Assembly (NCBI RefSeq): GCF_900104525.1
Contig: NZ_LT629711.1
Span: forward strand, 558,001 to 622,000
Length of the DNA: 64,000 nt
Reading direction: 5' to 3'
Source of the DNA: Pedococcus dokdonensis
GTDB lineage: Bacteria; Actinomycetota; Actinomycetes; Actinomycetales; Dermatophilaceae
Shown here one piece after another: positions 6,542-19,331 of this stretch. Each line of letters opens with the position of its first letter. Positions within the stretch are counted from its first letter, which is position 1. Made by a program: the position numbers and the translations under genes. Below the pieces are notes generated by a model. That model was not told the origin of the DNA, ran no database searches, and saw nothing but the letters and a program-made list of their open reading frames with translations.

Positions 6542-9475
6542 ATGACTGAAACCGCAGGCGCACGTGCAGGTGCGCGCAAGACATCCGGCAAGGGTGTCAA
6601 GGTTGAGCGGATCTACACCACCCCTGGTGTGCACCCGTACGACGAGGTGAACTGGGAGAAGCGCGACGTCGTCCAGCAGAACTGGAAGACCGGCGAGACG
6701 ATCTTCGAGCAGCGCGGGGTCGAGTTCCCCGACTTCTGGAGCGTCAACGCCTCCACCATCGTCACCACCAAGTACTTCCGTGGCGCGCTCGGCACCGAGG
6801 CGCGTGAGCAGGGCCTCAAGCAGCTCATCGACCGCGTCGTGCTGACCTACGTCAAGGCCGGCAAGGACCACGGCTACTTCGCCAACGCCGAGGACGCCGA
6901 GATCTTCGAGCACGAGCTGACCTACGCCCTGCTGCACCAGGTGTTCAGCTTCAACTCGCCGGTCTGGTTCAACGTCGGCACCAAGAGCCCCCAGCAGGTC
7001 AGCGCCTGCTTCATCCTCGCCGTCGACGACTCGATGGACTCGATCCTCAACTGGTACAAGGAAGAGGGCAAGATCTTCCAGGGCGGCTCCGGCGCCGGCC
7101 TGAACCTCTCCCGGATCCGCTCCTCCAAGGAGCTGCTGTCCTCCGGTGGCACCGCGTCCGGGCCGGTCTCCTTCATGCGTGGCGCCGACGCGTCCGCGGG
7201 GACGATCAAGTCCGGTGGCGCGACCCGTCGTGCGGCCAAGATGGTCGTGCTCGACGTCGACCACCCCGACATCATGGAGTTCGTCGAGACCAAGGCGCGC
7301 GAGGAGGACAAGATCCGCGCGCTGCGTGACGCCGGCTTCGACATGGACCTCGGTGGCAAGGACATCACCTCGGTCCAGTACCAGAACGCCAACAACTCGG
7401 TCCGCGTCAGCGACGAGTTCATGAAGGCGGTCGAGGCCGGCACCGACTTCGGGCTGCGCTCGCGCACCACCGGTGAGGTCATCGACACCGTCGACGCCCG
7501 TGAGCTGTTCCGCAAGCTCGCCGAGGCCGCCTGGGAGTGCGCCGACCCGGGCATCCAGTACGACGACGTGATCAACGACTGGCACACCAACCCCGAGACC
7601 GGCCGGATCACCGCGTCCAACCCGTGCTCCGAGTACATGTCGCTCGACAACTCGTCCTGCAACCTGGCCTCGCTCAACCTGCTGAAGTTCCTCAAGGACG
7701 ACGACACCTTCGACGCCAAGAAGTTCCAGCAGGTCGCCGAGCTGGTCATCACGGCGATGGACATCTCGATCTGCTTCGCCGACTTCCCGACCGAGGCGAT
7801 CGGCAAGACCACCGTCGACTACCGCCAGCTGGGCATCGGCTACGCCAACCTGGGCGCGCTGCTCATGGCGACCGGTCACGGCTACGACTCCGAGGGTGGC
7901 CGCTCGCTCGCGGCCGCGATCACCTCGCTGCTCACCGGTGCCGCCTACAAGCGGTCCGCGGAGCTCGCCGGTGTCGTCGGCGCGTATGCCGGGTACGCCC
8001 GGAACGCGGACGCCCACAAGCGCGTGATGCGCAAGCACCAGAGCGCCAACGACGCGATCCGCACCCTCGACACGATGGACACCGCGATCCACCGTGCGGC
8101 CACCAAGGCCTGGGACGACGTGGTCAAGGTCGGCGAGAAGAACGGCTACCGCAACGCGCAGGCCTCGGTGCTCGCGCCGACCGGCACCATCGGCTTCATG
8201 ATGGACTGCGACACCACCGGCATCGAGCCCGACTTCTCGCTGGTGAAGTTCAAGAAGCTCGTCGGTGGCGGGTCGATGCAGATCGTCAACCTCACCATCC
8301 CGCGTGCGCTGAAGAAGCTGGGCTACACCGGCGAGACCATCGAGGCGATCGTCGAGTACATCGCCGACAAGGGGCACGTCATCGACGCCCCCGGTCTGAA
8401 GACCGAGCACTACGAGATCTTCGACACCGCGATGGGCGCCCGCTCGATCGAGGCCATGGGTCACGTGCGGATGATGGCGGCGGTCCAGCCGTTCCTGTCC
8501 GGCGCGATCAGCAAGACGGTCAACCTGCCTGAGAACGCCACGGTCGAGGAGATCGAGGACGTCCACATGCAGGGCTGGAAGATGGGCCTCAAGGCGATCG
8601 CGGTCTACCGCGACAACTGCAAGGTCGGCCAGCCACTGTCCGACGGTGGTTCCACCGCTAAGGACGCTGCCGCCTCGAAGGACTCGGCTGCTGCCGAGGC
8701 CAAGGTCGAGAAGGTCATCGAGTACCGCCCGGTGCGCAAGCGCCTGCCGAAGCGCCGGACCTCGCAGACCACCTCGTTCGCGGTCGGTGGCGCGGAGGGT
8801 TACCTCACGGCCGGCACCTACGAGTCGGGCGACCTGGGCGAGATCTTCCTCAAGTTCGGCAAGCAGGGCTCGACCCTGGCCGGTGTGATGGACGCCTTCT
8901 CGATCGCGGTGTCGATCGGCCTGCAGTACGGCGTGCCGCTGGAGACCTTCGTGGAGAAGTTCACCAACCTGCGGTTCGAGCCGGCTGGCCTGACCGACGA
9001 CCCCGACGTGCGGATGGCGCAGTCGATCATGGACTACGTGTTCCGTCGCCTGGCGCTGGACCACATGGACTTCGACACCCGGTCGTTCATGGGCATCCAC
9101 ACCGCTGCCGAGCGCGCTCGCCAGCTGGAGACCGGCTCCTACACCGCGATCGAGGCCGACACCGAGTCGGACGAGGAGCTCGAGGACGAGCTGGAGAACT
9201 TCTCCCAGTCCGCCCCTGTCTCCAAGCCGGCCGCTGCCGCCTCCACCCCTGCGGTCGAGGGCAAGGCACTCGACGCCGACGCCGTGAAGTCCGGGGCGGG
9301 TGCCGCCAGCGCTCGCGAGGTCTCGGTCGAGGTCCACTCGAGCGCCGAGCTCCTGGAGAAGTTCCAGGGCATCTCCGCGGACGCCCCGATGTGCATGACC
9401 TGCGGCACCAAGATGCGCCCCGCTGGCTCCTGCTACGTCTGCGAAGGCTGCGGCAGCACCAGCGGCTGCAGCTGA
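6542..9475 (+). CDS. nrdJ: Vitamin B12-dependent (class II) ribonucleotide reductase
   Basis: This 977-residue enzyme reduces ribonucleotides to deoxyribonucleotides using an adenosylcobalamin-generated thiyl radical, so it needs neither oxygen nor an NrdB subunit. Key residues are visible: the redox pair Cys156 (SACFILAV) and Cys373 (SSCNLASLN), and the active-site Asn360-Cys362-Glu364 in NPCSEYM. The C-terminus ends in a Cys-rich module (MCMTCGTKM...CYVCEGCG) that is thought to shuttle reducing equivalents, preceded by an Ala/Ser-rich linker. Length and order match actinobacterial NrdJ. NrdR-mediated control from 5765-5813 is likely. A strong hairpin follows at 9490. Confidence 0.97.
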   Translation: MTETAGARAGARKTSGKGVKVERIYTTPGVHPYDEVNWEKRDVVQQNWKTGETIFEQRGVEFPDFWSVNASTIVTTKYFRGALGTEAREQGLKQLIDRVVLTYVKAGKDHGYFANAEDAEIFEHELTYALLHQVFSFNSPVWFNVGTKSPQQVSACFILAVDDSMDSILNWYKEEGKIFQGGSGAGLNLSRIRSSKELLSSGGTASGPVSFMRGADASAGTIKSGGATRRAAKMVVLDVDHPDIMEFVETKAREEDKIRALRDAGFDMDLGGKDITSVQYQNANNSVRVSDEFMKAVEAGTDFGLRSRTTGEVIDTVDARELFRKLAEAAWECADPGIQYDDVINDWHTNPETGRITASNPCSEYMSLDNSSCNLASLNLLKFLKDDDTFDAKKFQQVAELVITAMDISICFADFPTEAIGKTTVDYRQLGIGYANLGALLMATGHGYDSEGGRSLAAAITSLLTGAAYKRSAELAGVVGAYAGYARNADAHKRVMRKHQSANDAIRTLDTMDTAIHRAATKAWDDVVKVGEKNGYRNAQASVLAPTGTIGFMMDCDTTGIEPDFSLVKFKKLVGGGSMQIVNLTIPRALKKLGYTGETIEAIVEYIADKGHVIDAPGLKTEHYEIFDTAMGARSIEAMGHVRMMAAVQPFLSGAISKTVNLPENATVEEIEDVHMQGWKMGLKAIAVYRDNCKVGQPLSDGGSTAKDAAASKDSAAAEAKVEKVIEYRPVRKRLPKRRTSQTTSFAVGGAEGYLTAGTYESGDLGEIFLKFGKQGSTLAGVMDAFSIAVSIGLQYGVPLETFVEKFTNLRFEPAGLTDDPDVRMAQSIMDYVFRRLALDHMDFDTRSFMGIHTAAERARQLETGSYTAIEADTESDEELEDELENFSQSAPVSKPAAAASTPAVEGKALDADAVKSGAGAASAREVSVEVHSSAELLEKFQGISADAPMCMTCGTKMRPAGSCYVCEGCGSTSGCS

Positions 9476-9568: not shown

Positions 9569-9612
9569 TGGATGCTGACAGTGCGGCAGCTGGATGCTGA
9601 CAGTGCGGCAGC
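9569..9612. repeat. Perfect 22-bp tandem duplication at the island's left edge
   Basis: TGGATGCTGACAGTGCGGCAGC occurs twice, head to tail, with no mismatch and no spacer (9569-9590 and 9591-9612). It lies between the nrdJ terminator and the 3' end of vsr, where composition changes. It could be the scar of an insertion, a duplicated attachment site, or a regulatory repeat. No third copy was seen at the right edge of the island. Confidence 0.8.
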
Positions 9613-9683
9613 GCCGTGGTCAGTAGAAGCAAACCGTGGCTCGTAGGTGGGCGACCTGTGACCCGTCCGCCGTCAAAGTGGAT

Positions 9684-10115
9684 CTAGGTTCCTAGAGAGC
9701 GCAAGATCATCTCGACGCGGTCCGCGGCGTCACGGGTTTGCTCGTGCTCCCAAATTCGGATGACAGTCCAGTCGAGTCCGATCAGCTTTTCGTCCGTGTC
9801 CCTGTCACGCGCTCGATTGGTGCTGAACTTCCAGAGCCACCACTCTCGGTTCGCCATGGGCACTACGCAGTGGTCCGGGCAGGCATGCCAGAAACATCCA
9901 TCGACGAATACCGCCACCTTGCGTCGAGTGAAGACGATGTCAGCGCGTCTGCGTGGCAGCCCCTCGATCCTGTGCTGGACGCGATAGCGCAGACCCCGTG
10001 CGTGCAATTCGCGACGCAGTGCCATCTCGGGGCCAGTCCCCAAGCGCTTCTGCCTTGAGAATCGTTCGCTCAACTCCTTGCTCGGAGCCAATCGGTTTGG
10101 GATTCGTTCATTCAC
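9684..10115 (-). CDS. vsr: Very short patch repair (Vsr-type) mismatch endonuclease
   Basis: Vsr nicks 5' of the T in T:G mismatches that arise when 5-methylcytosine deaminates, so it protects genomes that carry a C5-methyltransferase. The 143-residue product has the family core: RFSRQKRLGTGPEMALRREL near the N-terminus, RRADIVF (Asp59), VFVDGCFWHACPDH (about 69-82) and the EWWLWKFSTN and VIRIWEHE segments. The GTG at 10115 was chosen because AGGAGG lies about ten bases upstream; an upstream GTG at 10145 precedes that RBS. It is divergent from the Z1 operon and functionally paired with the methyltransferase at 17844-19331. Confidence 0.92.
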   Translation of the reverse strand: MNERIPNRLAPSKELSERFSRQKRLGTGPEMALRRELHARGLRYRVQHRIEGLPRRRADIVFTRRKVAVFVDGCFWHACPDHCVVPMANREWWLWKFSTNRARDRDTDEKLIGLDWTVIRIWEHEQTRDAADRVEMILRSLGT

Positions 10116-10398
10116 GGTCCGGGATCCTCCTCTCGGCCAGTCCACACTCCAATGGCGGCCGCGACCTACAGAGAGAACACTGCAGGGCGCGGTTGTTCTG
10201 AGCCATTTTGTCAGGAACGGTCACGATTGGTGGTGGCCGATGGTAGAACACCGTTGTCACCCGGTCTGAGCCGGTCGGGGGCCAACTCGGCGGCGCACGC
10301 ATAGTCCGGGATCGCCACCGCAAGGGCCGGGAGCCACCAGCAGTCAAACGACGTGACGAGAGAGAGCCAGAGCCCGCCTCCGTGAAGAAAGACATCCC
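10116..10398. promoter_or_regulatory. Divergent promoter region of vsr and the Z1 operon
   Basis: These 283 bases separate the divergently read vsr and Z1-ATPase genes. Composition is lower in GC than the chromosome on either side. I see no C-protein gene, no well-formed palindromic operator and no convincing -35/-10 pair. The region must hold both promoters, but I cannot place them. Confidence 0.4.
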
Positions 10399-13032
10399 AT
10401 GGACACTCAGATGATCCAAGAGACGATCGTGCGGCACGCTCGCGCGCACAACGTGTCCCTACGAGAGGCTGGGAACCAGATCATTCGCGGCTTCGGTGTA
10501 CCCCCAGACTTCGTCGACTCCGCTGTTGAGGCACTCAAGGCGGAAGCCGCCAGAAACGAGATCCTCGATAACCCGGGTGGGGCCTTCCGAAGCAGCCGCG
10601 ATGAGGCCAGGCAGTCTCACTGGTACACGGGGCCAGTTGAGGGAGACGTCCACTGGCCTGCCTACTTGGTGGCGAGTGGGTGGCACGAAAAGCCCGACCA
10701 ACTGCTCTCCCTGGATACCGCCTCGACCAAGATCGTGGCGCATCTCGCTGACCCGACCATTCGTGGCAACAAGAAGAAGGGCCTCGTCGTTGGCCACGTC
10801 CAGTCGGGCAAGACTGCGAACTATGCCGCAGTGATCGCCAAAGCCGGGGACGCTGGCTATCGGATCGCGATCGTGATGTCCGGAATACATAACAACCTCC
10901 GGAAACAGACCCAAGTGCGGCTAGACAACGACTTGCGCATACCTGGGCTGTGGGATCCCTTGACCGACGCCGACGCCGACTTCGGTCAGGTGCCGAATGG
11001 GACGGCGCGCGTCGCGAGCAGGCTGCACATGTTGGCGGTCGTCAAGAAGAATCCATCTCGGCTGCGGCGTCTTCGTGACTGGCTGCACAACATTCCGCTG
11101 GAGGCGAGGAGGGCGTGCCCCATCCTGTTGATTGACGATGAGGCCGACCAAGCCACGCCGAATACGCGGGCTGCACGTGACGAGATGTCTCGCATCAATG
11201 AGTTGATCCGAGAGATCTGGTCAGAGGTCCCGACGGGGACTTACGTCGGCTACACGGCCACGCCGTTCGCGAATGTCTTTATGGATCCAAACGACGAGAC
11301 CGATCTGTACCCAGAGGACTTCATCGTGGACCTGCCAAGGCCGGGGGCCTACTACGGTGCCGAGCAGATCTTCGGTATGCCTCTGCAAGTCTCTGAGGAT
11401 GAGGTCGACGATGGCCTTGACATGGCCAGGGTCATCCCAGACGCGGAGGCCGAGCTCCTAAATGCTCCTACGAAGAAGGCGGATCGAGAGGGGTGGAAAC
11501 CGGTGCTGGCGGATTCGCTAGTTAGCGCCACCCGTTGGTTCCTCCTCGCCACCGCTGCCCGGCGGGCACGCGATGGCGTGGAAAAGCACAGCTCGATGCT
11601 CGTCCACACGACCCCTTACGTGGAGCCACACTTCAAGACGAAGGCGTTGGTGGACACGCTATTGAATGACCTTGTAGACGAAGTGACCAACGTGGGCCTC
11701 GACCAGTTCAAAGCCGTGTGGGACGCCGAGTATCCGCGTGTCCTGCCATCGGACGGGCGCGAACCCGTGTCTTGGCAGGACGTAACACTCGCCCTAGAGG
11801 ACGTTCTCAGATCCACCCGTGTCGTGGTCGACAACGGCAATTCGACGGACCGGCTCGACTACGGACGCAAAGGCGCGGATGGACTGGAACTCGTCGAAAC
11901 GGTGATTGCGGTCGGAGGGTCAACGCTCTCGCGCGGCCTGACGCTCGAGGGGCTCGTCGTCTCCTACTTCACGCGGGCTGCTCGCGCCTACGACACGTTG
12001 CTCCAGATGGGTCGATGGTTCGGCTACCGCTCGGGTTACGAGGAGCTACCGCGAGTCTGGATGACGTCGAGCATCCGTGAGGACTTCAGGTTCCTTGCCC
12101 ACGTGGAGTGGGAGATTCGTGAGGAGATGAGCTCGATGGGGACGCGAGGCGTTTCTCCTCATCAGTACGGACTTCGCGTCCGGGCGCACCCAGGCAACTT
12201 GGCGATCACTGCCAGAAACAAGATGCATTTCGCGCAGGCCGTGCAGATCAGCTTCTCCGGCCAACGGCACCAGACCATCCAATTCGAAGAGAAGGATTCA
12301 ACAGTCCAGCTCGCGAATCTCAGTGCCGCCCGCCAACTGCTGGACGACTGCGTTGCGGTGGGCGAGTCCGCCACGGTCGGCAGCACCCGCGTATTCCACG
12401 GGGTTGGGTCTGGAGCCGTGCTCGCCTTTCTCTCGGCTTACCGCTTCTATCCAGGCGGGGAGCTGTCGGGAACACAGATCGTGCAGTGGCTCAACAAGTT
12501 CGCTGCGGACCGGGCGTGGAACGTTGCCGTCGTCAGTCGTGCTAGGGAGCGCGTCGGAACAGTTGACCTTGGGCCTATTGGACAGGTCAACGGTCTTGTT
12601 CGAGCGCCGCTAAAATCCCCGACGAGCTACGCAAACATCAAGGGGCTGATGACAAAGGGCGACGCGGTCGTTGACCTAGGGGCTTCAGCGATTGGCCGCG
12701 TCAACGTTGGCGAAGGCTATCAAGCAGTAAGGGCTGACGCTGACTGCGATCGAGGGCTTCTCCTGCTCTACCCGATCTCCAAGGAATCGAAGCCGGTGTT
12801 CGCTGTGGAAACGACTTCTCGACGCCCGCTCGAGTCGCCAGAACACTTGATCGGCGTCGGGATCGTCTTCCCCCCGGTGCTTGATGGCGATGTGTCCGAA
12901 GACGGCACCTTCCTCGCGGTCCGGCCCGACTGGACGCCAGAGTTCGATGACGATGACGACCCGGAGGAGTTCAGAGACCTTGAGAACGATTTCGTAGCGT
13001 CAGCATTCAGCGGACCGACAGATGGGCCCTGA
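10399..13032 (+). CDS. Z1-domain ATPase/helicase-like subunit of a restriction system
   Basis: An 877-residue P-loop ATPase of the Z1 family (helicase superfamily II-like). Visible motifs are the Walker A GHVQSGKT (132-139), the Walker B LLIDDEAD (244-250), YVGYTATPFANVF (motif III-like, near residue 283), and the arginine-bearing QMGRWFGYR (536-544). Z1 proteins are the NTP-driven motor subunits of ATP-dependent restriction systems; in the C. glutamicum CglI enzyme a Z1-type subunit translocates along dsDNA. Here it opens a tight five-gene operon and overlaps the next gene by 11 bases. The N-terminal ~100 residues and the C-terminal ~250 residues carry no recognisable domain and may bind partners or DNA. 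The RBS is weak. Confidence 0.9.
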   Translation: MDTQMIQETIVRHARAHNVSLREAGNQIIRGFGVPPDFVDSAVEALKAEAARNEILDNPGGAFRSSRDEARQSHWYTGPVEGDVHWPAYLVASGWHEKPDQLLSLDTASTKIVAHLADPTIRGNKKKGLVVGHVQSGKTANYAAVIAKAGDAGYRIAIVMSGIHNNLRKQTQVRLDNDLRIPGLWDPLTDADADFGQVPNGTARVASRLHMLAVVKKNPSRLRRLRDWLHNIPLEARRACPILLIDDEADQATPNTRAARDEMSRINELIREIWSEVPTGTYVGYTATPFANVFMDPNDETDLYPEDFIVDLPRPGAYYGAEQIFGMPLQVSEDEVDDGLDMARVIPDAEAELLNAPTKKADREGWKPVLADSLVSATRWFLLATAARRARDGVEKHSSMLVHTTPYVEPHFKTKALVDTLLNDLVDEVTNVGLDQFKAVWDAEYPRVLPSDGREPVSWQDVTLALEDVLRSTRVVVDNGNSTDRLDYGRKGADGLELVETVIAVGGSTLSRGLTLEGLVVSYFTRAARAYDTLLQMGRWFGYRSGYEELPRVWMTSSIREDFRFLAHVEWEIREEMSSMGTRGVSPHQYGLRVRAHPGNLAITARNKMHFAQAVQISFSGQRHQTIQFEEKDSTVQLANLSAARQLLDDCVAVGESATVGSTRVFHGVGSGAVLAFLSAYRFYPGGELSGTQIVQWLNKFAADRAWNVAVVSRARERVGTVDLGPIGQVNGLVRAPLKSPTSYANIKGLMTKGDAVVDLGASAIGRVNVGEGYQAVRADADCDRGLLLLYPISKESKPVFAVETTSRRPLESPEHLIGVGIVFPPVLDGDVSEDGTFLAVRPDWTPEFDDDDDPEEFRDLENDFVASAFSGPTDGP

Positions 13033-14020
13033 CGCGGTGAACGTGAACATCGGCGAGGAATTCGTGCTCCTGGCAAGCGGTGAGGCTCCAACGGGAACCG
13101 AACTGTCGACTAGGCAGGTGCGTGTCGGCAATACAGACCTACGCGTGGGGATCGACAGTGACGGTTTTCGCCATCTCTTGGTCCAGGTGCCCGAAGAGAT
13201 CACGGGTGACCGACAGTCGGCCGCCTTGGTCCTTGGCACACGGATCCTTGCAGTGGGCTCGGAATCTGTGGTCTATGCCGATTTGAAGTGCTTGGACACG
13301 CGGCTGGCGCTTGTGTTCGAACGGCTGGTGGCTGACGTCGCGGCACGCATAGACGCCGGCGACCGACCCGGCGCCGCACTCCTCACGGCGCTACACGAGT
13401 GGCGCGACCTGTTTCGGGGGGTGCCGTCCGGGCCCACCCGAGAGCAGGTGGTCGGCCTGATCGGCGAGCTGGAGGTACTGGGCCGGCTATCGGGGAGTGT
13501 TGGGATCGTGCAGGCACTTGACGCCTGGTGGGGACCAGATGGCCACGCCCACGACTTCTATTCGAGTGCCGCGCGAGCGATAGAAGTCAAAACTACGAGA
13601 TCGCTTGAAGGAAACCGGATACATGTCAGCAATGCCGCACAACTCGACCCCACCGACCTAGCAGACCTGTGCCTTGCTGTGTTTCGCCTCAAGGAGGACC
13701 GACGGGCGCCGTCCCTTGATGAACGAATCGAATCCCTCTTGGAACTGGGTTATCCAGCGGCGGAGCTGCTCGCCAAGATCGAAGGAGCCGGGTACGTCTA
13801 CGAGACTCCGATTCCCTTCAACACCAGGTTTGCAGTCACCTCTGACAGGTGGTGGGTTGTCGGTGCCGACTTTCCGGGGGTGCGCGAGTCGCGGCTTGGC
13901 CCAACCGCACTGCGCGGCGTCAGCGCCATCAAATACGAATTGAGCTTGGATGCTGTAGGTGCGCCCATGACGGCGGAGCACGTCGATGCCTTGGTAAGGG
14001 GATGGCGAAACGATGGCTGA
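13022..14020 (+). CDS. PD-(D/E)XK nuclease-fold protein (DUF4420 type)
   Basis: This 332-residue protein has the conserved core of the PD-(D/E)XK motif family (DUF4420): GLIGELEVLGRL (Glu149/Glu151), WWGPDGHAHDFY (Asp178) and AIEVKTT (Glu188-Val189-Lys190), which together supply the metal-binding acidic residues and the catalytic lysine. It is the probable DNA-cutting subunit of the island. The start overlaps the Z1 stop by 11 bases and its own end overlaps the next gene by 8, so the three are translationally coupled. Cleavage site and sequence specificity cannot be read from sequence. Confidence 0.85.
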   Translation: MGPDAVNVNIGEEFVLLASGEAPTGTELSTRQVRVGNTDLRVGIDSDGFRHLLVQVPEEITGDRQSAALVLGTRILAVGSESVVYADLKCLDTRLALVFERLVADVAARIDAGDRPGAALLTALHEWRDLFRGVPSGPTREQVVGLIGELEVLGRLSGSVGIVQALDAWWGPDGHAHDFYSSAARAIEVKTTRSLEGNRIHVSNAAQLDPTDLADLCLAVFRLKEDRRAPSLDERIESLLELGYPAAELLAKIEGAGYVYETPIPFNTRFAVTSDRWWVVGADFPGVRESRLGPTALRGVSAIKYELSLDAVGAPMTAEHVDALVRGWRNDG

Positions 14021-16154
14021 CGATCTGCAGCAGGCGGCAGCGGGCGTCCAAGAGCACATCAAGGGTGCGGAGCTAAACGAGAACACGGTGCTCGCTGCGT
14101 ACATCCGTCGTGAAGGCGCGCAGGCGCGCGGGGACACATGGAGTCTCGCGAAGCACTTCAGGCGGCAGGGCTATTCCTTCGAAGCGGCCGCCCGTGGGGC
14201 GGTGTTGGGCATCGGAGGAGCTGAGACTGGGGGTGATAGGGCTGCCACAGACGAAGTGATCTCGCTGCACAGGCTTGACCTCGCCTCGGAGCCTGGCGCT
14301 CGCGAGCCGGACCCGCAGGCCCTCGAAGGTCCCCCCATCGAACCCCTCAGCTGGTATCCCAAGAGATACAGCCCGGGAGACATCGATGGGGATGGCGCCA
14401 AGAAATTGCTCGGCACGCCCAACATCCCCCTCGCGTCGGTGCTGGTGAGGGAGACAGCTCAAAACGCCTGGGACGCGAGAACCTTCGAATCAGACGTTGA
14501 TTTCGTCATCAATATGCGTTTGCTGAGTCCAGAAGCCACGGACACGTTAAGGGACATCTGCTTTCCGGAAACGGCGGCTGACGTCGACATTGTCGAGTCC
14601 ATGGAGGAGCCCATTTGGGCTCTTGAGATCAGTGATCGCGGCACGGTTGGCCTGCGAGGACCGACGAGGAACGACCTCTCGGTGCCAGATGGCACTCCAA
14701 CCAATTTCGTTGATTTGGTCTTCAACCTGGGTGGAAAGCATGAAGTAGCTGCATCGGGCGGTACCTACGGTTTTGGCAAGACCGTGGCCTACAAAGCCAG
14801 TCGCCTGGGAACCGTGCTCATGTGGAGCCGCGTGCACACCGAGACGGGGATAGAGGATCGCATCATCGGCTCCTCGATCGGCGATCGATTTGATATGGGT
14901 GGTTACCGATACACCGGTCGCCACTGGTGGGGGCGCATGATCGATGGCCATATCCAACCCCTGATCGGCCCCGCGGCGTCGCGCTTGGGGGCCGCCGTCT
15001 TCAACAAGGGTTTTGTGGGGGGCGAGACAGGGACTTCGATACTTATTCTCTGCCCTGACTTGGGCTCCAAGTCGCCCGACCGTGACGTCCCTCTTCTTGC
15101 GGAGGCGGTGCGCTGGCACCTTTGGCCCAAGCGCCTCGAGGCGCGCGAGGGGGACGTCCGCATGAACATCGATATCCAGCTTCAGGGAAGCTCGCTGCAG
15201 GTCTTCCCCGAAGGACTCACCAATCCGCACCTAGACAGTCTGAACGCATGTCTCCGTTCCGTACGTGCCGTTCAAGACGGCGAAGATGTGCCCGATGCAT
15301 TTCCTCCGGTGTTGGTCGAGGAAGTCTGGTGCCAGCGTCCCCTGACTCTTTTGGGGCATTTGGCGTTGCAGCGCTATCAGCACCGCACCATCGACACCTT
15401 CGCTGAAGATATCGTTCCCATCGAGGAACCGGCGCGGCATGTGGCCTTGATGAGGAACTCGGCTGAACTGGTCGTGAAGTACCTGCCGGCATTGCCCTTG
15501 GGCGAACCGGGATTTCGCTGGATGGGTGTCTTCAAGCCGGTCACCGCCTTGGATCCAGTGTTCGCATCTTCAGAACCTCCGGCTCACGATGACTGGGTTC
15601 CGGACGGCGCGGACGACAGGTGGGGAAAGACACAAGTTCGCGTCGGCCTGCGGAGGATCAGGGAGATCGCCGACAACTTCGCTCAGCCCATCGGGCTGCC
15701 CGACTTGCAGCCAGGCTCACGAGGATCAGTTGCGGCAATCGCGGATGCGCTAGCTGACTTAGTGCCCACGGTCTCCGCCAGTCGGCCAGAGCCCCGACCC
15801 TCGCGTCCTTCCGCGCCTGGCAGTCGGAAGCCGAGAGTAGACGTCACGGGCCAGGCAATGGGTCCAGTCGACGAGCACGGGGACCGCCTAGTCGCTCTCG
15901 AACTTCTCGTGTCTGACGCGGACCTGCCGGCAACGCTCGTTGCCCGAGGTTCCATCGGCGTCGATGGCGGTAGCGACAGCGGCGGGGGCGACGTCGAGGT
16001 TATTGGCTGGTCGGCCGAACGACCTGACTTGGAACTGGTCTCGCGACAAGGGGCTGCCGCAACAACCTTTGCGTCGCAAACAGGGGCCTGCTGGGTTCTC
16101 GTCCGAGCCAAAGTTGATCTAGCAGTGGATATCCAAGTTGACGTGGTGGCGTGA
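14013..16154 (+). CDS. GHKL (MORC/MutL-like) ATPase of the restriction operon
   Basis: A 713-residue protein with the Bergerat ATP-binding fold: the N box RETAQNAWDAR (Glu147, Asn151, Asp154), the G1 box EISDRGTVGL (Asp208, Gly210) and the G2 lid GGTYGFGKT (249-257). This arrangement is typical of the prokaryotic MORC-like ATPases found in modification-restriction operons (Iyer, Abhiman and Aravind 2008). ATP-driven dimer closure could clamp DNA and license cleavage by the neighbouring nuclease. About residues 590-713 are a Ser/Pro-rich linker and a beta-rich tail. The start overlaps the nuclease gene by 8 bases. The motifs are seen; the clamp role is inferred. Confidence 0.88.
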   Translation: MADDLQQAAAGVQEHIKGAELNENTVLAAYIRREGAQARGDTWSLAKHFRRQGYSFEAAARGAVLGIGGAETGGDRAATDEVISLHRLDLASEPGAREPDPQALEGPPIEPLSWYPKRYSPGDIDGDGAKKLLGTPNIPLASVLVRETAQNAWDARTFESDVDFVINMRLLSPEATDTLRDICFPETAADVDIVESMEEPIWALEISDRGTVGLRGPTRNDLSVPDGTPTNFVDLVFNLGGKHEVAASGGTYGFGKTVAYKASRLGTVLMWSRVHTETGIEDRIIGSSIGDRFDMGGYRYTGRHWWGRMIDGHIQPLIGPAASRLGAAVFNKGFVGGETGTSILILCPDLGSKSPDRDVPLLAEAVRWHLWPKRLEAREGDVRMNIDIQLQGSSLQVFPEGLTNPHLDSLNACLRSVRAVQDGEDVPDAFPPVLVEEVWCQRPLTLLGHLALQRYQHRTIDTFAEDIVPIEEPARHVALMRNSAELVVKYLPALPLGEPGFRWMGVFKPVTALDPVFASSEPPAHDDWVPDGADDRWGKTQVRVGLRRIREIADNFAQPIGLPDLQPGSRGSVAAIADALADLVPTVSASRPEPRPSRPSAPGSRKPRVDVTGQAMGPVDEHGDRLVALELLVSDADLPATLVARGSIGVDGGSDSGGGDVEVIGWSAERPDLELVSRQGAAATTFASQTGACWVLVRAKVDLAVDIQVDVVA

Positions 16155-17050
16155 TGGCTAGGGTCAGGATCCAGCCCCATATCGTTGCGTCGGCAAGGTC
16201 CGTCAAGTGGGCAGGCTGGGATTTGGTGACCGCGGTGGAACGTCGTCCTCTCGGACCCCGCCTAGATAGTTGGGACTACGACCAAGCGATCCGGATTGGC
16301 ACGGCGCCTGAGTTTGATCGAGATGAATTATTGAGTTCGACGGGCCTGGGTGGACACTCTGAAATGGAGATTGTCGTGACGGTCGACTGCCCATCCACTT
16401 CCCGGCGATTCGTTTCGCGGCTAGGAGTGGACGAGTATCTGGCTTCGTCAGATGCCTCCATCGACGTGGACGTACCAGCCGGCGCTGTCGCCCTTGAGTT
16501 GAAGATGACATGTCATGTGGTTCTCAAAGGTTCTCGTGCGGCGCACGGTCATACGGCGACGTTGTCTGGCTCTAGGTTGGCGGAGTCCCCTACAACTCGA
16601 CTGGTACTGGAGGGAGATGCGAGCAGATTCCCCACGGAGGCGTTGAGCTTCAATGATTTGAGGTGGGAGCCTGCAGCTTGGTCGGTCCGAATCGACGTGG
16701 ACGACATGAACGATGCCTTCAGAGGAGCTGTTCGTTTGGTCCTGAACACTGACCATCCTGTAGGTGCGGGGCTGGCCGCAGCTGATCCCAAGACATACGG
16801 CGCCCTGGGTAGCGTTGTGCGAATCGACATCGTCCGGGCCATCTTGCTCGTGGCATTCGAGCGCGTAGTGGGCCGAGAGGGCGGGGCGTCAGGTTTCGAT
16901 GATGAGTCTTTCGGGTCAGTTGCCAGACAAATGGCTAACGACCACTTTGGCATGAGCTTGGAAGCAGTAGGAGAGATGAAAGTCGCCGACGCGGCGAGAT
17001 TCGAACGTGTTCTGCAGTCATCCATGGGAATGGAAGTGACATTGTCATGA
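16154..17050 (+). CDS. Unrecognised protein of the restriction operon (gene 4)
   Basis: I do not recognise this 298-residue protein. It has no signal peptide or membrane segment. The first two thirds look beta-rich with alternating hydrophobics (MEIVVTVDCPSTSRRFVSRL, SIDVDVPAGAVALELKMTC), and the last third is helical (VRIDIVRAILLVAFERVVGRE). The ATG at 16154 shares its A with the TGA of the preceding ATPase gene, and the end overlaps the next gene by 4 bases, so it is firmly part of the operon. A DNA-binding, specificity or assembly role is possible but is only inferred from position. A GTG at 16151 is an alternative start. Confidence 0.75.
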   Translation: MARVRIQPHIVASARSVKWAGWDLVTAVERRPLGPRLDSWDYDQAIRIGTAPEFDRDELLSSTGLGGHSEMEIVVTVDCPSTSRRFVSRLGVDEYLASSDASIDVDVPAGAVALELKMTCHVVLKGSRAAHGHTATLSGSRLAESPTTRLVLEGDASRFPTEALSFNDLRWEPAAWSVRIDVDDMNDAFRGAVRLVLNTDHPVGAGLAAADPKTYGALGSVVRIDIVRAILLVAFERVVGREGGASGFDDESFGSVARQMANDHFGMSLEAVGEMKVADAARFERVLQSSMGMEVTLS

Positions 17051-17781
17051 GTGGCATGTTCACGTATCCGCGTCTTCCGGGGGAACCAGCTCGCGAGTTA
17101 CTGGCCTTAGTGCGCGACACATCAAAGATGGGAACAACTGGCGTCACGGCATTGGCTTCAGCATCACACCCGAAAGCCGCGCACGTCGCTACGGGCGGTC
17201 GTAAGTCAACGGGGGACGACCTTCTAAGAGTCCGTGGAAGGGTCTTGGAGGCCGTGGGGCACTGGGTGGACGGCGGTGGGGTTCCACGCAATCAGCAACC
17301 GAAGTTCGACGCGCTGCTGGGCCAAGCTCTGCATGAGTCATTGGAGATCCTTCCCGCTGACGCGGCACATGCGGGGACATGGAGTTTCCTTACGCTCGTC
17401 CTGTTGCCCGACGTAGCCGTCACGAGATTCACCGACTTGGTGGACGATCGTGGGCTCGGAACCAAGCGCGAGCGCAATGTGCTAAGTCGTGCTTGGATGC
17501 GGTGGGACGCGCTCGGGGCCGTGCTCCTTTCCGGGGATCCGATCTTGGGCGAGGACGAGCTTGTCGGGTTGCTCGAGCGCTCTGCCGTCGCTAGAAACGG
17601 AGCGCTTGTACATGAGTTGGCCACGGCCGTGCTTCACCACCGGACTGGCACTGCTCGATCTGAGTACGCGCGCGAACTTTACAAACGAGTCCGACATCGC
17701 ACGGGACCTCTCATGCTCGACTTGCTAACGCGTGACGAGCTCGCGGAACTCGTGCAGGCAGAGGCTGGCAAAGTTGGGTAG
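17047..17781 (+). CDS. Unrecognised protein of the restriction operon (gene 5; DUF6339-like?)
   Basis: The 244-residue product is predicted to be soluble and largely helical. The central segment WSFLTLVLLPDVAVTRFTDL followed by RERNVLSRAWMRWDALG recalls DUF6339-type proteins that travel with Z1/DUF4420 genes, but I cannot verify this match. The start overlaps the upstream stop in an ATGA arrangement. It is the last gene of the operon; its 3' end is 62 bp from the 3' end of the convergent methyltransferase gene. The function is unknown; an adaptor or regulator for the nuclease complex is a guess from context. Confidence 0.72.
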   Translation: MSGMFTYPRLPGEPARELLALVRDTSKMGTTGVTALASASHPKAAHVATGGRKSTGDDLLRVRGRVLEAVGHWVDGGGVPRNQQPKFDALLGQALHESLEILPADAAHAGTWSFLTLVLLPDVAVTRFTDLVDDRGLGTKRERNVLSRAWMRWDALGAVLLSGDPILGEDELVGLLERSAVARNGALVHELATAVLHHRTGTARSEYARELYKRVRHRTGPLMLDLLTRDELAELVQAEAGKVG

Positions 17782-17843
17782 GCACTCCAGAGCCCGGCTC
17801 GCGGCCCTAATTCCCGATCAAGACCTGCGTGCGCGGATATGCG

Positions 17844-19331
17844 TCAGAGTTGACCGACGCCGATCTCCCTGCCCAAGAGTTTGGCGACCGTGGCCCCGAG
17901 CTGACGTGCCAACAGCGGGGGAACGGCGTTTCCAACTTGGTGGTACTGCTGCGTCCGGTTGCCTGTGAAGAAATAGTCGTCTGGGAATGTCTGCAGCCTT
18001 GCCGCCTCGCGGACGGAGAGGCTGCGCATTTGCTCGGGGTCGGGGTGTACGTAGTAGTGCCCGTCCTTTGAAATGTGGGAAACGACGGTGGTGCTCGGCA
18101 TATCCCACCGCTGTACCCTAAAGCGATCTGCGAACGGCGCGTCCACTCGCGCCGCGTTGCGGTGATTCGGGATGAGGGCGGGGGGGAGTTCGTTGACCCT
18201 GGGAAATTCGCCCTGCTGCGCCTTCGCTGACAAGTAGGCGTACCGCATGAGGTCCGCCGGCATGTGCGCTCTGCTCTCATGTTGAATATGGCCGCCGAGA
18301 GTCGGGTCGGTCAGCCACATCTTCAGCGGGTCCGAGGCAGGTGCGTTGCCGTGGGCGGCGATGAAGCCGCGACCGACCGGCGCGCAACGTTGTGATCCGG
18401 CCCGTTCTGCAAGCCTTCTCGCGGCGCTCCTGATCTCGACGAATGCCTCTTCGCTGTCTTTGCTACGCGGCGAGATCATCGACCTGATACGCGGCATATC
18501 GCCGATTGCGTTCTCGACTGTGACGAGCTCCCCCTGCTGAAGGAGTTCATGCCGCCCCAAGCCGCTATCAGTGCGAACACCTAACAAGATCACTCTATGG
18601 CGGCGTTGAGGAACCCCGAAGCGTTCAGCCCGAAGAATGAAGTCCTGCGGTTGGAGGTCTGAGCCGGGGAGGACGAAGGAGCGAACGTCGTACTCGAGCC
18701 CAAACGCTGGAGATCGCAGGTCATCTAGAATTTTACGAAAGATCGACCCGCCGTCGTGCCGCGACGACAACATGCCCTTAACGTTTTCCATCACGAACAC
18801 AGTTGGGCGGTGCTGCTGAAGAATGTGGAGATACTCACGATATAGAAAGTGCTTCTCATCGTGGACGAATGTGGGGTCGTTGGTGCGACGTGATCTGCCG
18901 GCCAGAGAATAGGCTTGGCAGGGCGGCCCGCCAACGAGAATCCACGGGTCGTCGGTGCTTTGGAGGGATCCGCGGATTATGGCATCAGACTCGAGTCGAG
19001 TCTCTTGGCCCAACTCCAGTTGGCGGACTTCGCTTTCTGCATCTTTTAGAGCGGCCGAGACGTCGGGGTCCGCCGCCATGTCGCCGTAGGAAAGTTCGCC
19101 ACGAAGAAAGCGATATGCGGCGTTGGGGGTGCTTCCAGTGTTGCGGCGGATAGTTCGCAGTGCGGCCCGCAAGCGCAACGTGTTGACAGCAGCTGACTCC
19201 ATCTCGAATGAGTTGACCGTTTCGAAGATGGAGTTTCCATGGGCGTCGAGCAATGATGAGAAGCCCTCATTCAGTCCCCCTGGACCTGCGAAGACGTCCA
19301 CGACGGGAATGGCCGTCACGTGCTGTGTCAC
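17844..19331 (-). CDS. dcm: DNA (cytosine-5-)-methyltransferase
   Basis: A 495-residue C5-cytosine methyltransferase using S-adenosylmethionine. The ordered motifs are complete: I FAGPGGLNEGF (14-24), IV GGPPCQAYS with the nucleophile Cys138, VI MENVKG (181-186), VIII QRRHRVILLG (242-251), IX SVREAARLQTFPDDY (439-453) and X QVGNAVPP (465-472). The target-recognition region lies between VIII and IX (about 255-435) and is longer than in small single-domain enzymes. It should mark host DNA against the Z1/nuclease machinery; the Vsr protein at the other end repairs deamination of its product. The recognition sequence is unknown. It is convergent with the Z1 operon. Confidence 0.95.
   Translation of the reverse strand: MTQHVTAIPVVDVFAGPGGLNEGFSSLLDAHGNSIFETVNSFEMESAAVNTLRLRAALRTIRRNTGSTPNAAYRFLRGELSYGDMAADPDVSAALKDAESEVRQLELGQETRLESDAIIRGSLQSTDDPWILVGGPPCQAYSLAGRSRRTNDPTFVHDEKHFLYREYLHILQQHRPTVFVMENVKGMLSSRHDGGSIFRKILDDLRSPAFGLEYDVRSFVLPGSDLQPQDFILRAERFGVPQRRHRVILLGVRTDSGLGRHELLQQGELVTVENAIGDMPRIRSMISPRSKDSEEAFVEIRSAARRLAERAGSQRCAPVGRGFIAAHGNAPASDPLKMWLTDPTLGGHIQHESRAHMPADLMRYAYLSAKAQQGEFPRVNELPPALIPNHRNAARVDAPFADRFRVQRWDMPSTTVVSHISKDGHYYVHPDPEQMRSLSVREAARLQTFPDDYFFTGNRTQQYHQVGNAVPPLLARQLGATVAKLLGREIGVGQL

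Follow-up and report, generated by a model that had tools for sequence, protein, structure and literature searches.

A predicted restriction cassette with a paraMORC2-type GHKL ATPase and an exchangeable methyltransferase in Pedococcus dokdonensis

CglI-type restriction relies on a PLD-family nuclease with a B3 domain, and BREX systems are marked by PglZ/BrxZ and BrxC. Superfamily II (SFII) motors and GHKL-S5 ATPases spend ATP moving or clamping DNA, PD-(D/E)XK enzymes cut DNA, and Vsr mends deaminated 5-methylcytosine. We analysed a 64,000-nt window of Pedococcus dokdonensis (GCF_900104525.1, NZ_LT629711.1, positions 558,001-622,000 of the forward strand; coordinates below are window positions), in which an island (9569..19331) carries five linked genes for a motor, a DUF4420 nuclease, a GHKL ATPase and the proteins g5 and g6, flanked by genes for Vsr and a DNA cytosine-C5 methyltransferase (DCM). 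The five genes probably encode an anti-phage DNA-cutting machine, accompanied by DNA-marking and repair enzymes. This operon type was predicted in 2008 (Iyer, Abhiman and Aravind, PMC2292703). The text on paraMORC2 operons in that study, whose figures may show some of these features, does not discuss g5, g6, the fixed five-gene order or DCM exchange; to the 2008 prediction we add the definition of a five-gene cassette, the occurrence of its trio in PDC-M33-like loci as well, and the observation that a methyltransferase block is exchanged.

The first two core genes resemble components of Mza. The first (10399..13032, + strand), encoding the motor, contains a QSGKT motif (10792..10815, +) that is invariant in 18/18 aligned sequences, including that of the window, as are D246, D247, E248 and D250 (11134..11148, +). 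It matches the PADLOC MzaC model at 2e-88, yet its NCBIfam score of 365 bits falls short of the equivalog cut-off of 1500, so the protein is a homologue rather than MzaC proper. The second gene (13022..14020, +) encodes a 332-aa PD-(D/E)XK nuclease (Pfam DUF4420, 139 bits) related to MzaD (PADLOC 2.4e-12; 67.6 bits vs. an equivalog cut-off of 420), and D178, E188 and K190 of its catalytic core D178...E188-x-K190 (13553..13591, +), together with Q207, are invariant in 17/17 aligned sequences. Whereas Mza includes the MORC-type ATPase MzaB and the AIPR protein MzaE, searching the whole genome at E<=0.001 gave no hit to either; the genome encodes paraMORC2, g5 and g6 instead. None of the seven island proteins matched a PADLOC model named MzaA, although the presence of such a model in PADLOC was unchecked.

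The third core protein is a 713-aa GHKL-S5 ATPase of the paraMORC2 type (14013..16154, +), with GHKL ATP-binding motifs and an S5/transducer domain. An ExxxH motif in the C-terminal portion of S5 is the paraMORC2 motif (Iyer, Abhiman and Aravind 2008, PMC2292703), and it is found here at E521-H525 (15573..15587, +), within an EPxxHDxW pattern in 62/62 relatives. The MORC-specific motif GhXhhpXXRhl was found in 0/62 GHKL relatives, as paraMORC2 requires, while the same pattern was present in 18/20 MzaB-like proteins used as a control. Assignment to MORC proper was thus rejected. MzaB-like ATPases occur at 18/80 relatives' loci (the best 80 of 330, picked by similarity, some closely related), with the MORC motif in 15/18; their MORC label rests on this motif, so that they control the pattern and not the family name. 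Against them, the GHKL profile reaches just 14% in hhalign (E 0.002). A helical N-terminal extension (approximately residues 1-110; 14013..14342, +; helices in the structure model) is covered by matches starting at query residue 1-4 in only 9/80 loci.

Of the "two unknown proteins" in the initial annotation, g5 (299 aa; 16151..17050, +) still lacks a family above cut-off in PADLOC, Pfam or NCBIfam. It was found in 80/80 relatives and is modelled as a weakly Ig-like beta-sandwich with C-terminal helices (AlphaFold2 pLDDT 92). The other, g6 (244 aa; 17047..17781, +), is DUF6339/PDC-M33C-like, with weak direct matches (Pfam DUF6339 E 0.003, under cut-off; PADLOC PDC-M33C E 0.047). Its profile aligns with that of the third trio gene at loci L045, L046 and L129 (hhalign 98%), and this third gene in L045 matches DUF6339 at 1.7e-26. 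The GHKL-g5-g6 trio of the window is homologous gene by gene to these three trios, of which the two scanned (L045 and L046) match M33A and M33C. The GHKL protein itself matches PDC-M33A at E 1.2e-7 over only 72/713 residues, and the genome has no match to PDC-M33B (PDLC04583) at E<=10. In L094, L095, L116, L117 and L044, g6 frames span approximately 420-780 aa, and some may bear long C-terminal extras.

Both flanking genes lie on the - strand. The 153-aa Vsr-type T:G mismatch endonuclease (9684..10145) exceeds its cut-offs for TIGR00632 (105 vs. 98 bits) and Pfam Vsr (58 vs. 27 bits), and the 495-aa DCM (17844..19331) is complete, scoring above cut-off in Pfam (DNA_methylase, 156 bits) and TIGR00675 (145 vs. 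101 bits). Profiles and motifs thereby bear out the initial annotation's description of an island with Vsr, a DUF4420 nuclease, a GHKL ATPase and a complete C5-methyltransferase. Its interpretation is supported in part. Neither the PLD nuclease nor the B3 DNA-binding domain of CglI-type restriction was found among the seven proteins in Pfam, and PglZ/BrxZ and BrxC of BREX were likewise not found among them in PADLOC or Pfam.

Within the family, 9/186 genomes match, six of them strongly and three (G078, G113 and G054) weakly (E 7e-9 to 4e-4); within the order, 17/396 match. A first genome scan with a single GHKL sequence as query gave 28 pattern matches, with no relative among them. Open reading frames (ORFs) of the relatives were taken from stop to first start, making some starts too long; this accounts for the odd gene order at L117, which was kept among 75 loci (74 as printed). 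These 75 also include a DUF4420 gene in two pieces (L086), a g6 gene in two pieces (L111) and a DUF4420 protein scoring just 48 bits (L063). L082 is a contig of a metagenome-assembled genome and may be mis-binned. Co-variation was assessed by a distance test on the 64/80 loci with all seven genes, using the best-scoring DCM where several were present. The DCM-core distance correlation exceeds 2000/2000 permutations, although shared ancestry alone may account for a small or a large part of the correlation. As judged from these sequences, the comparison suggests that the parts of the cutting machine move together, whereas the DNA-marking enzyme is swapped in and out; in L075 and L083, one DCM type is paired with two different cores.

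The island lies beside a gene that we named by eye as nrdJ (B12-dependent ribonucleotide reductase; 6542-9475). Within the fetched neighbourhoods, nrdJ is near 8/116 loci searched: L056, L057, L058, L062 and L086 of the 80-locus set, and L027 (the L057 locus), L029 and the trio-only L045 of the family sample. It is present in 11/11 genomes of the genus, including that of the window. Ten regions downstream of nrdJ in the genus were fetched, and 10 ORFs from six of them were scanned, with matches to BrxA, BrxB and BrxC in one region, a type IV enzyme in three and a DUF262-type protein in one. The nrdJ side thus looks like a defence hotspot, and the nrdJ flank of such islands is probably a recurrent integration hotspot in several actinobacterial genera; it counts against this that the ORFs were chosen by eye, biasing the sample toward defence genes, and that they come from six of the ten regions. 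In one congener, the stretch that directly follows nrdJ (L155:6272-15095) carries a DCM gene and then genes for two large proteins (641 and at least 1389 aa) without a PADLOC match, possibly an unlisted defence operon.

We consider ATP-dependent restriction-modification the somewhat favoured prediction for the function of the island, in which the motor, the GHKL ATPase and the nuclease would act jointly on unmethylated DNA. More tentatively, the five-protein core may be a sequence-agnostic restriction engine to which the exchangeable DCM gives the address, either as target finder or by setting the self-mark. Several observations weigh against the favoured restriction-modification prediction. 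DUF4420 is absent from the otherwise complete cassettes L044, L049, L093 and L175 and therefore cannot always be the sole nuclease, and PADLOC, Pfam and NCBIfam searches of the five core proteins revealed no domain for target recognition. In the distance test, the co-variation of the core with DCM and with Vsr is weak (0.37-0.47). DCM was not found in 10/80 loci; in four of these (L054, L065, L113 and L124) a contig end truncates one flank or both, but in the other six (L067, L070, L071, L101, L104 and L121) each flank of the GHKL gene is longer than 8 kb. These six loci and the weak co-variation would also fit a methylation-independent, Mza-like phage sensor and killer with DCM and Vsr merely as neighbours in the same defence island, as would their position on either side of the core and on either strand and, in L067 and L071, a different EVKTT nuclease-like frame adjoining the GHKL-g5-g6 trio. 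Nevertheless, these 10 loci are the only ones of the 80 in which no DCM was found, so that homologues do not occur mostly without the methyltransferase, and we regard this explanation as rather unlikely.

The stable association of the core with a C5-methyltransferase and Vsr, as well as the permutation result, would also be expected of a conventional restriction-modification pair in which core and methyltransferase each recognise one and the same fixed DNA site, an explanation that we hold to be less likely still. A DNA repair or chromosome-structure module, as a MutL-like GHKL ATPase next to Vsr might imply, is highly improbable given the patchy occurrence in the family and order, the low GC content and the other defence genes occupying the same site in relatives.

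This widespread, apparently intact cassette is intermediate between Mza and the candidate PDC-M33, both of them catalogued, and joins a motor and a nuclease of the Mza type to a separate trio that includes the GHKL ATPase; a rule requiring all parts of either system would presumably miss it here. It places the conserved proteins g5 and g6 beside a restriction engine and makes the 2008 prediction for paraMORC2 ATPases directly testable. If the core is indeed sequence-agnostic, replacing the methyltransferase block, which consists of DCM-Vsr and in some cases also a true MORC, would re-address the whole machine; its logic would then resemble that of BREX, although the parts are unrelated. Such swapping raises the question of how these machines tell self from non-self.
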